In this document: positions 238-9,529 of the stretch, piece after piece
Position numbering within the stretch: the first letter of the stretch is position 1
Layout of the letters: each line of letters starts with the position of its first letter
DNA from: Nitrospinae bacterium RIFCSPLOWO2_12_FULL_45_22
GTDB lineage: Bacteria; 2-12-FULL-45-22
Reading direction: 5' to 3'
NCBI GenBank assembly: GCA_001803565.1
Contig: MHDQ01000211.1
Span: forward strand, 1-9,529
Length of the DNA: 9,529 bases
Made by a program: the position numbers and the translations under genes
Notes under the pieces: generated by a model
What the model saw: only the letters and a program-made list of their open reading frames with translations
Database searches by the model: none
What the model was told of the DNA's origin: nothing

Positions 238-2457
238 TTACTGTATCCTCTTTGCGCCATAGATTTTCTGGTAAAAGATTTGATTCCGGAGAATATTTTT
301 TATATAATCGCGCGTCTCGTTATAAGGGATATTTTCAATGAATTCTTCCGGATCGTTAACCGCATAGCTTTTCAGCCATTCTTTGACCTTTTCTGGCCCC
401 GCATTATAACCTGCTAGAGCCAGGATTAGATTCCGATCAAATCTCTTCTGCAAGTAATTAAAATACCATATCCCTAGCGATATGTTAGAGTCAGGATCGA
501 AAAGGTAGTGTTGTTTAAAACCATCTTTACTCAATGATTGGGAAATGAACTCTCCGGTAGAAGGCAAGATCTGCATCAGCCCACAAGCGCCAGCAGAAGA
601 GATTGCCCCGGATTGGAAGGCGCTCTCCTGCCGGATAATAGCCATGATCAAGTAAGGGTCCTGGCGGTACTGCCTGGCCTGGGAATTTACCTGCTCCCAA
701 TATGGTAAGGGATAAAATAGCTGCCATAACTCTGCCGGGAACTGGTTCCTGTCCTTTACTGGCTTAGTAAGCAGAATCCGGCTCAAAATCTTTATTGCGT
801 CATGATAAAATCCAGTTTGGCAAGAAAATTTAGCCAGGGGATATAGACAGTTAGTATCCGGGGAGACGAGTTTCATTAAATATTTTAATTCCTGCTGACC
901 CTCTACATAAAAGGCCAGCACAGCTAATTCTCTAATCCTTTCCAGATAGTAGTTCTGTTCGGCGCTCCATGACATATCCTTAGGGGGCGGGGGTCGGGGA
1001 ATCAGTGACACTTCTGACCCCTGATCTCTGACCCCTGACCCCTGACCCTTTGGTTCCTGACTTTTCCGCCATCGTTCTTCTCCTTTAATGCCGTAATAGC
1101 TATAAGGGTAGTTCCGGGCTAATTCTTCATAATATTCTTGAGCCTTTTCTTCCTGGCCGGCCTTTTCCAGTGCCCTGGCATACCAGTAAAGGGCTTTGTC
1201 TCTCAGTTTGTCAGCCTTAGAAAGGAGGGTTAAATCCTTAAACACCTGAGCAGCTCTAGCATATTCGCCTGTTGCATACTCTGTCCAACCCCATCGCCAA
1301 TAAACCTCCGGGAGCAATTCTCCTTTCGGAAACTGCCTTGCCATGTCCTGATATACCCTGCGGGCCTGGGGCCATCTCCCTTCCTCTTCCTTCATTAACC
1401 CCAAGACCAACATCCCTTTCTCGGTCCACGCATCAGCAGGAAAAGTCTTTATCAGTCTCTTTATCGCTCCTTCACCTCTATAATAGTCTTTTGTCGTCCA
1501 ATATAACCTTGCGAGGTAATATAGCCCTTCCGGTAAATAATGGCTGCCAGGATATTTAGCTATAAATTGTTCAAGTAAAGATTTAGCTTCAGTCCTTTCT
1601 CTGAGCATGCTTTGACAGAAGGCCTTTTTTAATACAGCATTCTCACGAAATTCTTGAGAAGGTTGTACAGATATAATATTCTCATAATCCTTTAAGGCCA
1701 AGGCATAACGCCCCAGTTCCCTCAATTTTTCTGCCCTTTTTAGATAGAGCACCAGCGAGCTTTTGGCCAGGTTCAATACTTTATGTTTATCTAAAATATT
1801 CATCTCTCGCCAACTGGCATCTGCAAGGGTCTGTTCTGGATAATCAAAGTAGAGCCTACTGTATAGCTCCCAGGCCGGGGATGACTGACCGGTTTTTGCC
1901 AGAGACTCTGCCCAGCCAAATATTGCTTCGGCCTCTTTTTTCCTATTAGCCAGCCCCTCCCCTTCTATAACTCCCTGGTATTTAGCGATGGCCTGAGCAT
2001 AATCTCCCATCTCCTTCAAGGCATGAGCTTCCAGGAGTTGGGCATCATAGACTAAGAGGCTCTTAGGATACTTCTCGCCAAATGATTTTATTAACTCATA
2101 GGCTCTATGGGGCTTACCCTGTGCCAGCCATATTTTGCCCAGTTCTAGCTCAATATAATCCCGCAACTTGTCATAGTCTTTCCTGGCCCGGATAAAATAG
2201 TCTTCCGCCTCCGGGAGCTTACCAAGCTGTTTATAGGTATAAGCTAGAAGGAACAGGGCTCTTTTCTGCCAAATAGGTTCTGGATTGGAATCTAACAGTT
2301 TCTTAAGGTTGGGTATGGTGTTTTGGTAATCCTGGGCTTGTGTCTGTGCTAAGATAACCTTCCAATCCTTTGGTGGATCAGGGTCTGCCATTACTGGCCA
2401 GACAAAAATAACCAGGCAAACAAAAAGGATTATTATTAAATTTTTTCCTCTACCCAT
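238..2457 (-). CDS. slt: Soluble lytic murein transglycosylase with N-terminal TPR domain
   Basis: 739 residues. Residues 1-24 look like a Sec signal peptide: basic MGRGK, a hydrophobic core, then VMA before DPDPP, so the enzyme should act in the periplasm. Residues about 30-460 form a long TPR-like superhelix. Residues about 590-730 form the SLT domain: RQES with the probable catalytic glutamate E611, GLMQILPSTG (626-635), LAGYNAGPEK (681-690) and IPYNETRDYIKNIL (710-723). This enzyme class cleaves the MurNAc-GlcNAc bond without water and leaves 1,6-anhydro-MurNAc ends. The length is somewhat above that of E. coli Slt70. The start overlaps the anmK end by 8 bases (ATG inside GATGGGTAG), implying translational coupling. 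The TPR-to-SLT linker contains an unusual low-complexity insert encoded by a GGGGTCA-type repeat. The family call is firm; the gene symbol is by family analogy. Confidence 0.93.
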   Translation of the reverse strand: MGRGKNLIIILFVCLVIFVWPVMADPDPPKDWKVILAQTQAQDYQNTIPNLKKLLDSNPEPIWQKRALFLLAYTYKQLGKLPEAEDYFIRARKDYDKLRDYIELELGKIWLAQGKPHRAYELIKSFGEKYPKSLLVYDAQLLEAHALKEMGDYAQAIAKYQGVIEGEGLANRKKEAEAIFGWAESLAKTGQSSPAWELYSRLYFDYPEQTLADASWREMNILDKHKVLNLAKSSLVLYLKRAEKLRELGRYALALKDYENIISVQPSQEFRENAVLKKAFCQSMLRERTEAKSLLEQFIAKYPGSHYLPEGLYYLARLYWTTKDYYRGEGAIKRLIKTFPADAWTEKGMLVLGLMKEEEGRWPQARRVYQDMARQFPKGELLPEVYWRWGWTEYATGEYARAAQVFKDLTLLSKADKLRDKALYWYARALEKAGQEEKAQEYYEELARNYPYSYYGIKGEERWRKSQEPKGQGSGVRDQGSEVSLIPRPPPPKDMSWSAEQNYYLERIRELAVLAFYVEGQQELKYLMKLVSPDTNCLYPLAKFSCQTGFYHDAIKILSRILLTKPVKDRNQFPAELWQLFYPLPYWEQVNSQARQYRQDPYLIMAIIRQESAFQSGAISSAGACGLMQILPSTGEFISQSLSKDGFKQHYLFDPDSNISLGIWYFNYLQKRFDRNLILALAGYNAGPEKVKEWLKSYAVNDPEEFIENIPYNETRDYIKNILRNQIFYQKIYGAKRIQ
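1013..1050 (-). repeat. GGGGTCA-type microsatellite inside slt
   Basis: On the minus strand several imperfect copies of a GGGGTCA unit follow one another, with one AGATCA variant. They encode the stretch GQGSGVRDQGSEV (residues 471-483) between the TPR region and the SLT domain. The following PRPPPPK is also low-complexity. The repeat keeps the reading frame, so it looks like a tolerated linker expansion rather than a disruption. GGGGTCA arrays like this are usually intergenic. Confidence 0.65.
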
Positions 2458-4817: not shown

Positions 4818-4998
4818 AGCCACCAAGGCACAAAGTCACTAAGGAATGGCAAAGGACCTGGATAGAGGCGAGCAAGCCTTCGGCCTAGAGGGCCTCAGCC
4901 CGAAGGCTCGATCACTACAAATTATTTTTTGGTTGTAATGGCAGAGCTTGCTCTGCATCATACATTTGACCCTTGGTGTCTTGGTGCCTTAGTGGCTA
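4818..4998. repeat. MITE-like intergenic element with 27-bp terminal inverted repeats
   Basis: The left end (4818-4844) starts AGCCACCAAGGCACAAAGTC and the right end (4972-4998) is its reverse complement at 23 of 27 positions. Inside are two more hairpins: AGCCTTCGG (4874-4882) against CCGAAGGCT further right, and the near-perfect palindrome GCAGAGCTTGCTCTGC at 4941-4956. No open frame in it looks real. It lies between the radical SAM start and the damaged VapC remnant, and its right end is about 20 bases from where the toxin sequence is lost. The 'CACCAAGGCACAAAGNCAC' terminal motif is common between genes in many environmental bacterial genomes, but I cannot name the mobilising enzyme. Confidence 0.7.
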
Positions 4999-5021
4999 AT
5001 AAAACTTCCCTGGGTGAACGA

Positions 5022-5051
5022 TTACTTGGCGTCGATGCAACGTTTGGGCAC
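5022..5051 (-). pseudogene. Remnant of a VapC-type PIN toxin gene (first codons only)
   Basis: Three bases after the antitoxin stop, a GTG codon preceded by GAGGGG starts a frame reading MPKRCIDAK and then stop. VapC/PIN toxins typically open with a short strand leading into I-D-A/T-N-V-I, where the aspartate is catalytic. Adding one base after GCCAA here would restore IDANVIV, after which all similarity ends within a few bases. The natural reading is that the 3' portion of the toxin was deleted, with a frameshift at the break, leaving the antitoxin orphaned. The segment is too short for certainty; the call rests on position, the ribosome-binding site and the IDA signature together. Confidence 0.5.
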
Positions 5052-5054
5052 AGA

Positions 5055-5321
5055 TTACCCCTCGTCACGGATGCGGCGTAAGTCTGCGGCAGAGTCAAAC
5101 TCTCCTTCCCATAGTTCAGCCACCTTATCACACTCGGCTAACCAAGCATCTACCTTCGCCAACCGTGACTTCGCCCCTTCCTTATTGTTTTCTTGTGTTG
5201 TAGCAACAAGAGCCAGATTAATCAACTGCTCGGAGATATGTGCCACTAGTTTGAGTTGTTCGTGCGGTGGCAGTTGAGCCACCTGTTGTTCCAGTTGCTC
5301 TAAAGTCATCTTGTTGCTCAT
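5055..5321 (-). CDS. VapB-like antitoxin (orphan)
   Basis: 88 residues. The N-terminal helix MTLEQLEQQVAQLPPHEQLK has the 'LPPEEQLKLVE' pattern of a common antitoxin family paired with PIN-domain toxins, and the C-terminus GEFDSAADLRRIRDEG carries the acidic/arginine tail expected to enter the toxin active site. A GAGGAG ribosome-binding site lies 7 bases before the ATG. It normally neutralises the VapC ribonuclease and represses its own operon. Here only the first codons of a toxin follow, so it may be a relic or a free antitoxin able to neutralise a related VapC elsewhere. It starts shortly after the attC-like site at 5361-5432, so it looks like the first gene of a truncated cassette. Confidence 0.75.
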   Translation of the reverse strand: MSNKMTLEQLEQQVAQLPPHEQLKLVAHISEQLINLALVATTQENNKEGAKSRLAKVDAWLAECDKVAELWEGEFDSAADLRRIRDEG

Positions 5322-5360: not shown

Positions 5361-5432
5361 GCCTAACGGGCTGGCTAAACGAAGTTGCGAAGCATTTCCT
5401 ATAATTTTTTATCTTTTAGCCTGTTGTTAGCT
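5361..5432 (-). other. attC-like recombination site C
   Basis: Reading the minus strand, an R''-type box AGCTAAC (5432-5426) leads into arm GGCTAAA (5421-5415). A variable loop follows, then arm TTTAGCC (5379-5373), a 5-base spacer and R' box GTTAGGC (5367-5361), which fits GTTRRRY. The arms are perfect complements over 7 bases and the boxes pair over GCTAAC with mismatches. The stop codon of the 185-residue gene lies inside the R'' box, as is frequent in integron cassettes. The expected cut is between G (5367) and TT (5366). Confidence 0.68.
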
Positions 5433-6028
5433 GAAGTCAGATATATATTTCTTCTGTCCATAGCGTTCTAACATATCTTGCAAAATCTTATCATCTATTA
5501 CGGCTTTTACATAATTGTATAATCTTTTGTATTCAGATTTTAGCTCAGGGCAACTTTCCCAGACTTCATGATTGTTGATAATCGTTTGTATTTTACCATT
5601 TAAAATATCTACACCTGCCCAATCTTTAAGAATTTTAGGGCTGAGTAGCACCCAGGCAAAAAATCCTTCCCAGTATTTCCTATCCGGATCCGAAAGGGCA
5701 TCCCATGTTTTATCAATATAATCATGATCAATCCATACCATTTGCTCCTCAGCTTTGTCTGCCCCTTCTTCATTTCCTAATATTCGAATAGATTCTTTTA
5801 TCCAAGAAGGAAAAGGCTCGCAGAAATTCCAAGCTCTCCCATAGGCTTGGTACCAATCATGGTTTACAATCCTATGATTTGAACCCAAGAGTTCATGGGG
5901 TTTATCCTTTTCTTTATGAAGATCGAAATAAGGTCTTCCATAAGCGATTAAATCTATTACTGCATGTACCCATGCACTTGGCATTTTACAAATCCCCTTT
6001 TTCTTCCGTTAATCTGATTTTCAGCTAA
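5367..6028 (-). mobile_element. Integron-type gene cassette carrying one unknown gene
   Basis: The boundaries are set by the G|TT cut points of two attC-like sites. The cassette begins TTAGCTGAA at 6028 and its own R'' region near 5426-5435 reads TTCAGCTAAC, the exact reverse complement of GTTAGCTGAA. In the excised circle these two ends would form one matched attC, which is what cassette biology predicts and what chance would rarely give. About 660 bases, one gene, and a short leader (5985-6028) with an AGGGG ribosome-binding site. Confidence 0.7.
5427..5984 (-). CDS. Conserved-looking cassette protein of unknown function
   Basis: 185 residues; I do not recognise the family with confidence. 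There is no signal peptide and no clear membrane segment, so it is probably cytosolic. It is rich in W, Y and acidic residues and histidines cluster in the N-terminal third: H7 in PSAWVH, then H23, H30, H37 and H42 in NHDWYQAYG, and later IDHDYID (85-91). The spacing of H/D pairs could suit a metal-binding, mostly helical hydrolase, but that is only an inference. The ATG at 5984 follows an AGGGG site about 10 bases upstream, and the stop falls in the R'' box of attC site C. The coding region is visibly more AT-rich than slt or anmK, consistent with acquisition as a cassette. It stands alone without an antitoxin-like partner. Confidence 0.75.
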   Translation of the reverse strand: MPSAWVHAVIDLIAYGRPYFDLHKEKDKPHELLGSNHRIVNHDWYQAYGRAWNFCEPFPSWIKESIRILGNEEGADKAEEQMVWIDHDYIDKTWDALSDPDRKYWEGFFAWVLLSPKILKDWAGVDILNGKIQTIINNHEVWESCPELKSEYKRLYNYVKAVIDDKILQDMLERYGQKKYISDFS

Positions 6029-6089
6029 CGGTTTTGGCACAAAAGAAGCCTGAAGGGTTTGGATGGTAATCTTTTGCACCATGTTATCT
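6023..6089 (-). other. attC-like recombination site B
   Basis: Minus-strand order: R''-like AGATAAC (6089-6083), one spacer base, arm TGGTGCAAAAG (6081-6071), 25-base loop, arm CTTTTGTGCCA (6045-6035), 5-base spacer, R' box GTTAGCT (6029-6023). The arms pair over 11 positions with two G-T wobbles in the folded single strand. The spacer layout (1 base on one side, 5 on the other) matches attC site A. The R' box departs from GTTRRRY at one base. The site directly follows the hicA stop. Confidence 0.65.
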
Positions 6090-6094
6090 GCCTG
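6082..6094 (+). repeat. 13-bp direct repeat, copy 1 (TGTTATCTGCCTG)
   Basis: An exact second copy is at 6627-6639 in the same orientation. The two copies bracket the hicBA unit. On the minus strand this copy contains the R'' box of attC site B (CAGGCAGATAAC). Confidence 0.75.
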
Positions 6095-6108: not shown

Positions 6109-6321
6109 TTATAAAAGTTTTTTGAATTCTTCAATAGTTAGTCCAGCATCTTTTACCATACCGGCCATTGTGAAAGCATCCACGGGATTAACCCTGGGGA
6201 TGGTAATAATCCTTTCGCCGTTTGTCATTGTGATATGTTTACCTTTTCTTGCTATTCGGAAACCTGCTTTTTGAAATGCCCTCACTGCTCGCTGGTGGTT
6301 TATCCCTGATAATTTAGGCAT
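6109..6321 (-). CDS. hicA: HicA-type mRNA interferase toxin
   Basis: 70 residues, typical for HicA. The protein is basic with a double-stranded-RNA-binding-like fold, and the family's catalytic histidine fits H29 in the segment RKGKHITM (25-32); the conserved AFQKAGF (15-21) and GMVKDAGLT (53-61) segments are present. HicA cleaves mRNA and tmRNA and is blocked by HicB. Its ATG overlaps the hicB end by 8 bases (ATGCCTAA), giving coupled translation in the hicB-hicA order. The stop at 6109-6111 is 14 bases before the direct repeat and attC site B. No truncation or frameshift is visible, so the toxin appears intact. Confidence 0.9.
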   Translation of the reverse strand: MPKLSGINHQRAVRAFQKAGFRIARKGKHITMTNGERIITIPRVNPVDAFTMAGMVKDAGLTIEEFKKLL

Positions 6322-6514
6322 AAGATACTTCTACATAACGATACTCTTTGTCTTTGGTTAGCTCCTCAACGGTTTCTAAATATGATTGTATGGCATCTTT
6401 AATGTTTTCCAATGCTTCTTCTTCTGTTTTTCCTTGAGACCAGCAACCAGGCAGGCCAGGAACCCAGACAGAATAACCTTCTTCTGTTTTTTTGAGATTT
6501 ACTTTATATTTCAT
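6314..6514 (-). CDS. hicB: HicB-type antitoxin
   Basis: 66 residues from the ATG at 6514, which is 5 bases after a very strong AGGAGG site; a GTG two codons upstream would overlap that site and is less likely. The segment around GYSVWVPGLPGCWSQGKTEEEALENI is the classic HicB pattern (partial RNase-H-like fold: V-P-x-L-P-G-C...G-x-T-x-E-E-A). The protein ends soon after the fold, lacking a C-terminal helix-turn-helix or ribbon-helix-helix domain, so autoregulation may be weak or rely on the complex. It is the partner of the overlapping hicA. HicBA pairs are frequent cargo of chromosomal integron cassettes, which fits this context. Confidence 0.9.
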   Translation of the reverse strand: MKYKVNLKKTEEGYSVWVPGLPGCWSQGKTEEEALENIKDAIQSYLETVEELTKDKEYRYVEVSYA

Positions 6515-6626
6515 AGGCACCTCCTTAGTCTTTTTAATCTTTTAACCTATTTTACCCCAAAATGCTGATTTTGTTTACCAATAAATAGAAGGGCAAAGCC
6601 TTTGGGATAATTAATCTCAAACTCTC

Positions 6627-6639
6627 TGTTATCTGCCTG
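6627..6639 (+). repeat. 13-bp direct repeat, copy 2 (TGTTATCTGCCTG)
   Basis: Identical to 6082-6094 and located about 110 bases upstream of hicB. The rest of the interval 6515-6815 holds the hicB leader, this repeat, the dispersed repeat at 6708-6735 and the tail downstream of the DUF2442 gene. I see no gene in it, and no strong sigma-70 promoter apart from an isolated TAAAAT at about 6549-6554 on the minus strand. Confidence 0.7.
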
Positions 6640-6707: not shown

Positions 6708-6735
6708 AAGACCTGACCCCATTTTGTACTCACCC
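6708..6735 (-). repeat. Dispersed repeat copy 1 (GTGAGTA...AAATGGGGTCAGGTCTT)
   Basis: On the minus strand this segment reads GGGTGAGTAC, then AAAATGGGGTCAGGTCTT. A related copy at 7679-7705 reads GAGTGAGT, then AAATGGTGTCAGGCCT; the two align with a 3-base gap. 'TGGGGTCAGGTCTTG' sequences are often seen near REP-associated tyrosine transposases (IS200-like family), but no such transposase is in the window. Confidence 0.55.
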
Positions 6736-6814
6736 ACTGGGTAACAATATCGAATTTCATGGGCTTTCACCCAATCCCAACGACCTGGATTTTGCTTGGC
6801 ACGAGCAGCGACTG

Positions 6815-6821
6815 GTTAGGC
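6815..6821 (-). other. Isolated attC R''-like box GCCTAAC
   Basis: GCCTAAC matches RYYYAAC exactly and contains the DUF2442 gene stop codon, the same arrangement as at attC site C. I cannot find a matching L'/R' half downstream on the minus strand. It may be the remaining half of an attC site cut by the repeat at 6708-6735, or a chance match. Confidence 0.35.
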
Positions 6822-7082
6822 TATTGGCTGCATTCCTAATAAGTGGCGTACTTCAATGCCATCGTCTAAATCTTCCCAATAGATGGCAAAACCTCCTGGT
6901 TCAAGAGACCATTTGGCTCGTTGCTCTGGAGTGGCTTTTGCCAACCAATCTAACCACTCAACTTGGTCTATTGCTACACTGATTTCTCTGCCATCACTAA
7001 GGAAAATACAGAGTGTGTTGCCAACAAAATGGAGATTGGTTGCTCCAACCTCTTCTATCATTTTACGTGGTAAAGTAGCCAT
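6816..7082 (-). CDS. DUF2442 domain protein
   Basis: 88 residues. The pattern FLSDGREISVAIDQVEWL, ATPEQRAKWSLEPGGFAIYW and DLDDGIEVRHLL is the DUF2442 signature (L-x-D-G-R-x-I-x-V ... T-P-E-Q-R-A-x-W ... G-x-x-I-x-W-x-x-L-D-E-D-I). A GGAGGTG site just before the ATG supports this start, which lies inside the end of the DUF4160 gene (20-base overlap). DUF4160-DUF2442 pairs recur in bacterial genomes and mobile regions and are suspected toxin-antitoxin-like modules, but I know of no settled activity. The stop codon falls inside an attC-like R'' box. Confidence 0.85.
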   Translation of the reverse strand: MATLPRKMIEEVGATNLHFVGNTLCIFLSDGREISVAIDQVEWLDWLAKATPEQRAKWSLEPGGFAIYWEDLDDGIEVRHLLGMQPIA

Positions 7083-7296
7083 TCCACACCTCCAATAATC
7101 TATCCTGATTCTGCCGTGTTAACTTCAAAATACGGTTCAGTTCGGCTGGATTATAGCCATGATTGTATTCTACCACCACAGGCTGAAGCCAAATTTTAGC
7201 TTCATTTTCACCATATAAAACATGAACATGTGGCGGTTCGTTTATATCAGAAGAATAGAACCGAAATTTATAACCGTCAATTACACTTGTTGGCAT
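7063..7296 (-). CDS. DUF4160 domain protein
   Basis: 77 residues from the ATG at 7296. The family N-terminus (MPT...G-x-x-F-x-F-Y-S), the hallmark NEPPHVHV (24-31), EAKIWL (37-42) and the LTRQNQDRLLEVWNGYF tail identify DUF4160. The upstream alternative start (TTG at 7311) lies within the AAAGGTG ribosome-binding site and is rejected. The gene overlaps the DUF2442 gene by 20 bases, so the pair is translated together. The conserved histidine pair in HVH may bind metal or act catalytically, but function is not established. It is one of several two-gene small-protein modules in this array. Confidence 0.85.
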   Translation of the reverse strand: MPTSVIDGYKFRFYSSDINEPPHVHVLYGENEAKIWLQPVVVEYNHGYNPAELNRILKLTRQNQDRLLEVWNGYFTT

Positions 7297-7302
7297 GTAA
7301 AC

Positions 7303-7397
7303 ACCTTTCAATTTTGGCTGAACCCTTTTGTTTATATTGTGTCAGGACTTTCGCCGTTTGCCTACCGGGTTTATGGGCCGTACCCTCACGTCAAAGC
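7303..7397 (-). other. Unexplained possibly structured stretch before DUF4160
   Basis: Between the broken DUF433 gene and DUF4160 I see no convincing gene. Reading the minus strand, CCGCTA and TAGCGG (just to the right, about 7409-7436) can pair around a TGG/CCA stem. Further on, CAGG (about 7401-7404) and CCTG (7342-7345) bracket a G-rich segment with CCCGGTAGGCAAACGGCG and GAAAGTCC. Fragmentary resemblance to group II intron text is too weak to call. It could be a leader RNA, an eroded attC or element debris. Confidence 0.25.
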
Positions 7398-7533
7398 TCA
7401 CCTGCCGCTATGGAGCACCAGCGGAGTAGCGGTCAGAATGAGGCTAACCGGAATTCTGGTTCCTTTGATCCGTGGTTTACCTCGGAGCACATCCCGGCGT
7501 GCTCACAATATAATCTCTCCAATTTGCTTGCAT
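7398..7533 (-). pseudogene. DUF433 gene, frameshifted and 3'-truncated
   Basis: An AGGAGG site 6 bases before the ATG at 7533 starts MQANWRDYIVSTPG, then hits a stop at 7477. From 7493 another frame continues the same protein as DVLRGKPRIKGTRIPVSLIL before running into unrelated residues and a stop at 7398. W-R-D-x-I followed by G-K-P-x-I-x-G-T-R-I-P-V is the DUF433 core. Removing one G from the GGG at 7494-7496 restores STPDVLRGKP. The last half of the domain is missing. DUF433 proteins are commonly the antitoxin-like partner of DUF5615 PIN-like proteins, and no such partner remains here. It is the first gene after attC site A. A sequencing error could explain the frameshift but not the missing C-terminus. 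Confidence 0.72.
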
Positions 7534-7552: not shown

Positions 7553-7637
7553 GCTTAACGTTCCCAGCATAAAAGAAGCTCGGCGAGGCAAAAATTTGGG
7601 TGAGCCCGAAGGGCAAACCTTTTATGCTGTGTTATAC
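7553..7637 (-). other. attC-like recombination site A (best example)
   Basis: Minus-strand order: R'' box GTATAAC (7637-7631), one spacer base, arm CAGCATAAAAG (7629-7619), loop with a GCCCTTCGGGC hairpin, arm CTTTTATGCTG (7575-7565), 5-base spacer, R' box GTTAAGC (7559-7553), which fits GTTRRRY exactly. The arms are perfect 11-bp complements, and outside the boxes GGCG pairs with CGCC. A TAA stop of a short upstream open frame falls in the R'' box, suggesting a lost cassette gene ended here. The recombination point would be at 7559/7558. Confidence 0.8.
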
Positions 7638-7734: not shown

Positions 7735-9529
7735 TCAGGCATGGGTTTGATGTAATCTCTGCAATGAGCTGCGAACCACGGACAACGAGTATTCGTCACC
7801 GTATTTCTTAAAGAGCCCTTCTGCCTGCAAGTACAGCCTTTCTGCTTCATCAAATTGCCGTCTCTCCTGGGCGATCGTTCCCAACTGGTGTAAAGTGCTT
7901 GCCTGGCCGTATTCGTTTTTCAACTTCTCCTCTATTGCCAAACTCTTGCAATACCATTGCTCTGCTTCATCAAATTGCCGTCTCTCCTCGGCGATCATTC
8001 CCAACTGGTGTAAAGTGCTTGCCTGGCCGTATTCGTCTTTCAACTTCTCCTCTATTGCCAGACTCTTGCGATACCATTTCTCTGCTTCATCAAATTGCCG
8101 TCTCTCCCCGGCGATCATTCCCAGATTGTGCCACAATGAGGCACACAGATCTTCTGCCCCGGCAAGAGGCACCCCTTGACCGTCTGTTGCCTTCCTTTCA
8201 ATCTCCAGATTCAGCAGCTCAGATTCCGACCACCGACTTTGCCTGACTAACATCTCTGCCATCCCCAGTGATATGCGGTTGAGCGCATCCCACATCCGGC
8301 GCCGCAAGCCAAGACGGATTGCATACCGAAGATTCTGTTCTTCCAGCCGCACAACTGGCATCGCTGCTTCTGCATTTGTCCTAAGTTGTTGTTGCAGTAA
8401 CTGACTTAAATCGCCACACACATCCACAAATTTCTGCTCCAGCCATTCCATATCTTCAGCGTATGTTGTCTGCAATATCTCGTGAAAGAACCACGGAAGC
8501 GCCGGATGGATTTTATACAGACCAGGGCCTAGCTTGTGCAACAAGCCAATCTCTGCAGATTGGTCAAGCATTCGCCCCCAGGCATTTGAATCTAATCCCT
8601 CCAGTAATTCAGGAGCTGAATCATCATCGCAGATATAAGCCAGCACATCTGCATTTACAAATCCCTGAAACATTCCCAGCACACCCAGACGACCACGCAG
8701 TGATTCATCCAGGCTGTCCAGACGATATTCAAGCGAGGCGGTGAGTGAGTGTTCTCTGCCTTGCTCCCTGTCATCCCTGGGGAGCTTAGCTGCTCCTGTC
8801 TGTAAGGCAGATAACAGGTCATCAGGCTCAATTCGTGCCAGCTCCGGCAGGATCGCCTGTATGGCCAATGGATTCCCCTGAAGATAATTTAGTAGTTTGT
8901 CATATGGTTTGAGCCTCTGGCGGTCTATACCTGCTCGATAGAGAACTTTTCCTGCCAGCTCCGTTGCATCCCTTTGATTCAGTCCGCGCAATGTTATAAG
9001 TTGATAGCATCTACCAAGCCATCCTTCCTCTCTCCTGCTGGTGAGGATAACCTTTGTTGCTCCACCGCTCAAGGCTCGCAAGAAATCCTTAAGCTCCTGC
9101 TGTTCCTCTTTCTTCCACACCGATGGTGTTCCTTTCGGAAATCCTGCTACTGGCTCGAAATTGTCCCAGATCATCAGACATGGTATCTTCCGCAGGATAT
9201 CCTTTGTCAGTTGACGGCGTTGGATTGGATCCAAAAGATGCCATTCAGTGCCAGTTTGAGCTTTGATCACCTCTCTAAATACATCACCGATTTGGTTACA
9301 AACATGGTCCAGAGTGATGTAAGATTCAAAGGAGAAGAAGAATATCGGACCGTCCAGAGCACCTGTCTCCGCCCACCACCTGGCAAATCCCACAGCAGTT
9401 GTTGTCTTACCAACCCCGGCCATTGCCTGTAGAAGGACTATTGTCTCCCGCTCAAATGCCTTTTCCAATCCCCAGATATCCGCGTCCCTGCCAATAAAGC
9501 CGTAATCCGGCTGCTCTGGCAGGTCAATC
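7735..9529 (-). CDS. STAND (NB-ARC-like) NTPase with C-terminal TPR repeats, partial
   Basis: The frame stays open to the right edge, so the N-terminus is missing. The TTG at 9468 is not taken as the start because coding continues upstream through YGFIGRDADIWGLEKAF, the usual lead-in to this NTPase class. Counting from that TTG: P-loop AGVGKTT (17-23), Walker B CLMIWDNFE (97-105), sensor-like VILTSRRE (140-147), GNPLA (198-202), a winged-helix-like region to about 330 with YKIHP (318-322), then TPRs (about 440-577) in 40-residue units. STAND proteins are switch NTPases: ligand binding by the repeats triggers ATP-dependent oligomerisation and turns on an N-terminal effector. Related proteins often carry a CHAT, TIR or nuclease effector in the part outside this window. 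Roles include phage defence and signalling; nothing visible decides between them. Confidence 0.88.
   Translation of the reverse strand, partial: IDLPEQPDYGFIGRDADIWGLEKAFERETIVLLQAMAGVGKTTTAVGFARWWAETGALDGPIFFFSFESYITLDHVCNQIGDVFREVIKAQTGTEWHLLDPIQRRQLTKDILRKIPCLMIWDNFEPVAGFPKGTPSVWKKEEQQELKDFLRALSGGATKVILTSRREEGWLGRCYQLITLRGLNQRDATELAGKVLYRAGIDRQRLKPYDKLLNYLQGNPLAIQAILPELARIEPDDLLSALQTGAAKLPRDDREQGREHSLTASLEYRLDSLDESLRGRLGVLGMFQGFVNADVLAYICDDDSAPELLEGLDSNAWGRMLDQSAEIGLLHKLGPGLYKIHPALPWFFHEILQTTYAEDMEWLEQKFVDVCGDLSQLLQQQLRTNAEAAMPVVRLEEQNLRYAIRLGLRRRMWDALNRISLGMAEMLVRQSRWSESELLNLEIERKATDGQGVPLAGAEDLCASLWHNLGMIAGERRQFDEAEKWYRKSLAIEEKLKDEYGQASTLHQLGMIAEERRQFDEAEQWYCKSLAIEEKLKNEYGQASTLHQLGTIAQERRQFDEAERLYLQAEGLFKKYGDEYSLSVVRSSLQRLHQTHA
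7841..8120 (-). repeat. 120-bp tandem repeats encoding TPR units
   Basis: Units 7841-7960 and 7961-8080 differ at about 6 of 120 bases. A third copy begins at 8081 and matches for about 40 bases before diverging. Each encodes one 40-residue TPR-type unit (ERRQFDEAE...KSLAIEEKL...EYGQASTLHQLG). Such near-identity points to recent duplication or gene conversion in the sensor part of the STAND protein. Confidence 0.85.

Follow-up and report, generated by a model that had tools for sequence, protein, structure and literature searches.

The contig MHDQ01000211.1 of Nitrospinae bacterium RIFCSPLOWO2_12_FULL_45_22, whose whole length of 9,529 nucleotides is the window analysed here (contig C211), carries on its minus strand a segment with one gene for a 185-residue protein, and the two ends of this segment are exact reverse complements over 10 bases. 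This raises the question of whether the gene belongs to a single integron cassette, as a sequence-only reading had proposed from those ends, and of which evidence defines the limits of such a cassette. We conclude, with a probability of roughly 0.93, that the segment is an integron gene cassette in a CALIN-type array, one whose attC sites share their contig with no integrase. The cassette conforms to normal integron biology; its host belongs to a little-known bacterial lineage with two genomes in the searched set, and the exact limits of the cassette could be confirmed from the sequence alone.

Limits and matching ends of the cassette

The cassette is 662 bp long (5367-6028, minus strand), starts with TTAGCTGAA at 6028 and has as its last base the G at 5367, within its own attC. 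These limits, already proposed in the sequence-only reading, are correct by the G^TT rule, applied to the attC on either side, and relatives become similar to the cassette from the GTT of its start onward; the start limit is thus given additionally by the break of similarity in two relatives, and the end limit by the attC only. The start box GTTAGCTGAA (6020-6029, minus strand) is the R' of the upstream attC and forms the start of the cassette, and the end box TTCAGCTAAC (5426-5435, minus strand) is the R'' of the cassette's own attC. On the plus strand, 6020-6029 reads TTCAGCTAAC and 5426-5435 reads GTTAGCTGAA, which directly confirms that the boxes are 10-base reverse complements; the end-to-end match is 10/10 and is broken at the 11th base.

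The window contains seven perfect 10-base inverted pairs at spacings of 300-900 bp, and 100 shuffles had 6.8 on average. The inverted repeat alone is at chance level and is therefore not "the cleanest evidence" that it had been taken to be; the boundary break in the relatives and the attC model are stronger. What goes beyond chance is placement, as the two copies of the box fall on R boxes, in two different attC sites. Additionally, GTTAGCT at the start and AGCTAAC at the end are each one base off the GTTRRRY/RYYYAAC consensus, and the departures are complementary, as is expected if both came from one attC. Within each flanking attC in situ, the boxes agree at 8 of 13 compared bases, whereas the two ends of the cassette agree at 10; the difference arises because two different cassettes are joined in each of these sites. 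When the cassette ends were joined in silico, they gave a single attC with a complete 10-bp outer stem, as would be predicted for an excised circle; the predicted bottom-strand energy of this joined attC is -14.0 kcal/mol, compared with -7.3 kcal/mol for the in-situ attC. The start box and the cassette's own end box are therefore those of one attC.

The same rule was examined in 20 spans between neighbouring attC sites from five genomes, with 10 bases compared in each. Cassette starts matched their own ends at a mean of 7.00 of 10 positions and other ends at 6.03, and the observed sum was reached in 1 of 20000 permutations in which the ends were shuffled. The four spans of 500-740 bp matched their own ends at 10, 9, 9 and 9 of 10 bases (two cassettes of contig C55 at 9/10 each), and longer spans matched poorly, presumably owing to undetected attC sites within them.

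The attC sites of the window

Structures with the box order R''/L''/L'/R' were initially detected with a simple stem finder, and a covariance model (R1) was built from nine training attC sites, which came from the window itself, from further contigs of the same genome and from a relative in a Thermoplasmatota metagenome-assembled genome (MAG; L030). In the nine-site alignment both stems covary: 87.7% of the cells are paired, compared with 72.1% in shuffles, and 12 of the 18 pairs have changed on both sides. R1 recovered three minus-strand attC sites in the window, every other match scoring at most 9.4 bits. The site at the 3' end of the cassette (5361-5432; 48.7 bits) has the boxes R'' AGCTAAC, L'' GGCTAAA, L' TTTAGCC and R' GTTAGGC, the last belonging to the next cassette, and these R''/R' and L''/L' boxes are able to fold, both strands having been folded. 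The attC of the upstream cassette, whose R' is the start of the studied one, lies at 6023-6089 (57.8 bits; stem finder 16.6), and the third site of the array at 7553-7637 (80.4 bits; stem finder 16.3) has near-copies in contig C313 and in other genomes.

The scores of the window sites, as well as that of the site in L030, are high by construction because these sites are in the R1 training set; independent support comes from the stem finder for two of the three window sites, from covariation and from hits at non-training sites. With the stem finder, 6089-6023 and 7637-7553 on the minus strand scored above every shuffle of the window, and 5432-5361, the weakest of the three, fell below its first cut (12.5). 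Elsewhere in the genome R1 found seven further attC sites, two of which had not been used for the model. Sites outside the training set, C55:998-1086 and C101:9879-9970 in this genome and several in other genomes, reached at least 50 bits. An Rfam search of the window found nothing.

Two further places in the window may be remains of attC sites. A 12-base direct repeat, CAGGCAGATAAC (minus strand, by eye), stands at approximately 6081-6092 and 6626-6637; the R'' box of the attC at 6089-6023 is part of it, and it is possibly the remnant of another attC. Over its 52 bases, the stretch 7385-7436 has approximately 90% identity with an attC of canonical appearance in contig C17 (12538-12588) and with a place in genome G028; its boxes are degenerate, and it is probably a decayed attC.

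Relatives in another phylum and in an archaeon

The sequence-only reading had called for a search of related genomes for the same cassette at other positions. No second copy was found in the genome itself, neither the DNA nor the protein of the cassette was found in plasmids, and the protein was not found in viral contigs. An exact-DNA search of the viral contigs for the empty-site junction and for the attC left half was likewise negative, and no circle was found, such that the suggested comparison with empty sites yielded no instance. Relatives, by contrast with copies, do exist behind attC sites. Five relatives of the 185-residue protein show 45-79% identity over the alignment, and the family is rare and very sporadic, occurring in 1 of 395, 1 of 132 and 2 of 386 genomes. 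In two of them, in a Thermodesulfovibrionales MAG (L029) and in the archaeal Thermoplasmatota MAG (L030), the gene lies behind an attC-like site, which scores 70.4 bits with R1 in L030, where it is a training sequence.

These two loci also permitted the check that conserved flanks extending through the boundaries would contradict a cassette. The leader from the GTT to the ATG aligns with that of the window at 34 of 45 columns in L029 and 32 of 45 in L030, and none of 1000 shuffles was as good; over the 60 nucleotides upstream of the GTT, 840 of 1000 shuffles were as good for L029 and 80 of 1000 for L030. The leader is alike and the 60 upstream nucleotides are not, and the similarity therefore starts at the predicted cut. 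Neither locus shows an attC on the far (3') side of the gene, and the relatives therefore confirm the start boundary only.

With R1, nine attC sites were found in the genome of L029 and eight in that of L030, and none in the genomes of the three relatives whose gene has no neighbouring attC; an integron integrase passed the family cut-off in the genome of L029 but not in that of L030. The gene is thus a link between this cassette and cassettes of a different bacterial phylum and of an archaeal genome. Integrons of Archaea, and attC sites that are near-identical between domains, have been reported (PMC9668308). Our case resembles those archaeal integrons in that a relative of the gene starts at an attC in a Thermoplasmatota MAG, the contigs of which carry eight attC sites but no integron integrase that passes the family cut-off; whereas near-identical attC sites were the shared element in that report, here the gene of a cassette is shared together with its leader. 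With the relatives 63% identical, the sharing is not a recent exchange.

The array and its cargo

The array is of the CALIN type, i.e., at least two attC sites less than 4 kb apart with no integrase gene nearby (PMC9668308, PMC9024848): three attC sites lie within 2.3 kb, the studied cassette being placed between those at 6023-6089 and 5361-5432, and the integron-integrase model TIGR02249 had no match on the 9.5-kb contig. Neither intI nor attI is present on this contig, beyond which the array extends on its 5' side; the contig ends at 9529, and an integrase farther out is therefore possible. The upstream cassette carries a HicB/HicA toxin-antitoxin pair (6109-6520, minus strand; HicB 6314-6520, PF15919, 6e-11; HicA 6109-6321, PF07927, 7e-7; both above cut-off). 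Farther upstream, a DUF4160 gene (7063-7311; PF13711, 1e-19) and a DUF2442 gene (6816-7082; PF10387, 2e-11) form a pair on the minus strand (6816-7311) that is likely a toxin-antitoxin cassette; the DUF4160 protein is DhiT-like by a match to NF048015 (toxin_DhiT, 4e-8) that is below that model's own cut-off. A NACHT-like/TPR gene (7735-9528, minus strand; TPR_12, 1e-18; NACHT, 5e-4, below cut-off) runs off the contig and ends approximately 100 bp before the 7553-7637 attC, and it is probably the cargo of the cassette that ends with this site. On the other side, the next and last cassette contains an 88-residue open reading frame (5055-5321, minus strand), whose leader recurs behind another attC in contig C117, and no attC was found after it. 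Between this last cassette and a radical SAM gene lies a dispersed repeat (4850-5025) that recurs with 96-99% identity at the ends of contigs C117, C246 and C71 and is probably a place of assembly breaks.

The array is similar to the CALIN arrays described with IntegronFinder 2.0 (PMC9024848) in its tandem cassettes of one orientation with single genes or toxin-antitoxin pairs, its R''/L''/L'/R' attC sites and the lack of a nearby integrase. It differs from them in its rare, little-sampled host lineage, in a cargo gene without a known family and in having three attC sites and one decayed site.

The stretch 6729-6821 was considered as an intact attC and rejected, as it consists of an attC left half (6803-6821) directly ahead of a 5' fragment of a group II intron (6729-6802, minus strand), which is 87-88% identical to stretches of contigs C17 and C151 that run into RF02005 introns. 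The three intron copies or fragments (window 6729-6821; C17, approximately 581-673, minus strand, locus L013; C151, 1501-1593, locus L014) share a similar upstream flank, those of C17 and C151 being of the RF02005 type. In the window and in C17 this flank reads as an attC left half (GCCTAAC...GCTC/GTGCC) in the orientation of the cassettes, and in the window and in C151 the intron follows a gene pair of the DUF4160/DUF2442 type (identified by eye in C151). A truncated group II intron in a CALIN amid toxin-antitoxin cassettes, HicA included, is already known (PMC7923331), and the present array is alike in all of these respects; however, typical IIC-attC introns are oriented opposite to the cassettes (PMC7923331), whereas the fragment in the window is of the RF02005 type and lies in the same orientation, behind an attC left half.

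Origin of the cassette and alternative explanations

Cutting and insertion at the bottom strand of attC is known integron biology (PMC8946536). In the scheme that we propose, an integron-type tyrosine recombinase would have cut bottom-strand attC hairpins at G^TT, and a cassette circle carrying one attC would have been inserted between two other cassettes, with the R' half of its attC placed at the left end (6029) and the R'' half kept at the right end (5435-5426). Such a split of the circle's single attC on insertion would explain why the ends are still exact reverse complements and why the boxes of the hybrid attC sites are mismatched. The recombination itself, the enzyme and an event recent enough to have left the ends unmutated are what we infer from this pattern.

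The same ends could, in principle, be a chance inverted repeat beside ordinary hairpins or terminators. Their frequency in the window is indeed that of chance, but their position at attC boxes, the covariation, the boundary break in the relatives and the recurrence of attC in the genome, together with the lack of any terminator-like site in the region, make this highly improbable. Equally remote is a small transposon, or a MITE, bounded by terminal inverted repeats of 10 bases (5426-6029): the perfect inverted ends of this 604-bp segment would suit such an element, but there is neither a transposase nor a clear target-site duplication in the flanks, the repeats sit inside larger attC structures, the relatives share the start side only and lack the other repeat, and the genome holds no second copy.

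A different matter is how a real cassette reached this place. It may have come within a ready-made block of cassettes, through segmental transfer or duplication, instead of being inserted singly here, a history that we consider possible although unlikely. Several toxin-antitoxin cassettes stand side by side, very similar attC sites exist on further contigs as well as in other genomes, and the many integrase fragments in the genome are a sign of old decayed arrays, all of which would suit a block. The hybrid flanking attC sites, on the other hand, indicate that the cassette was joined at some point to neighbours of different origin, and its GC content of 0.367, compared with 0.420 and 0.498 in the rest of the array, points in the same direction; neither observation gives the place of joining. 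Consequently, of the claim that the 185-residue gene moved as a single cassette, the cassette itself is supported, and the data do not show whether it arrived alone or with its neighbours.

The 185-residue protein

The cassette gene (5427-5984, minus strand) has its stop codon inside the end box, and its product matched no family in searches of Pfam, NCBIfam, PADLOC and solved structures. The first predicted model had a mean pLDDT of 64.5, and a second one made with six sequences reached 71.3; the predicted fold is mostly helical at middling confidence. At an E value of 0.001, Foldseek found no match for the first model in the PDB or for the second in BFVD, and the best VIA match had a Z of 3.6 over 85 residues at 3.5 Å rmsd. 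We therefore claim no function from the fold. The family conserves H7, D11, H23, H37, H42, H87, D88 and D91, a set of histidines and aspartates that suggests a metal site. One relative's gene has an IrrE-like (M78) gene on one side and a DUF1016/YhcG nuclease gene on the other.

Recombinases in the genome and an attI-like site

The genome (G000) encodes two full-length integron integrases, on contigs C243 and C304, and no attC was found on either contig. Many partial integrase matches, some with stops, also occur in it, suggesting repeated decay of integron integrases. On C55 and C202, each array follows immediately after the gene of a XerA_Arch-type tyrosine recombinase. The recombinase of C55 scores 233.7 bits with XerA_Arch (cut-off 220) and 225.6 bits with the integron-integrase model (cut-off 265), and an alignment with the two integron integrases indicates that the XerA-type recombinase lacks the additional domain of approximately 40 residues, which has been described as necessary for integron recombination (PMC9668308).

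The end-match rule proved general enough to predict the start of the first cassette on these two contigs from its own end box, at C55:3287 and C202:4106 with 9/10 matches, and it therefore pointed to an attI-like site beside the recombinase. The motif GACGACAnnGTCGTCTGTGAACnA/GTT lies directly ahead of both predicted starts, and the two loci (L057 on C55, 3250-4563; L058 on C202, 4054-4929; both minus strand) align from the recombinase gene to the GTT, with 664 of 849 columns matching in all, and then differ. The GACGACAnnGTCGTCTGTGAACnA/GTT site looks like an attI. The XerA-type recombinase might, without the integron-integrase domain, handle the attC cassettes of this genome, perhaps including the studied one, a proposal that we regard as doubtful. 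The open frame of the C202 recombinase is shorter at its N-terminus, which counts against a firm claim for attI or XerA; R1 found no attC in the genomes of more distant XerA-type relatives (G045, G054, G030 and G087), which weakens the XerA reading, and a scan of viral contigs gave no hit to the attI-like motif. That such a site stands next to a recombinase lacking the integron-integrase domain is a testable claim on what an integron system needs. The first cassette behind this site on C202 (L058, 1968-4002, minus strand) encodes a D12 DNA methyltransferase together with a SacI-like restriction enzyme, so that its cargo is a restriction-modification pair.
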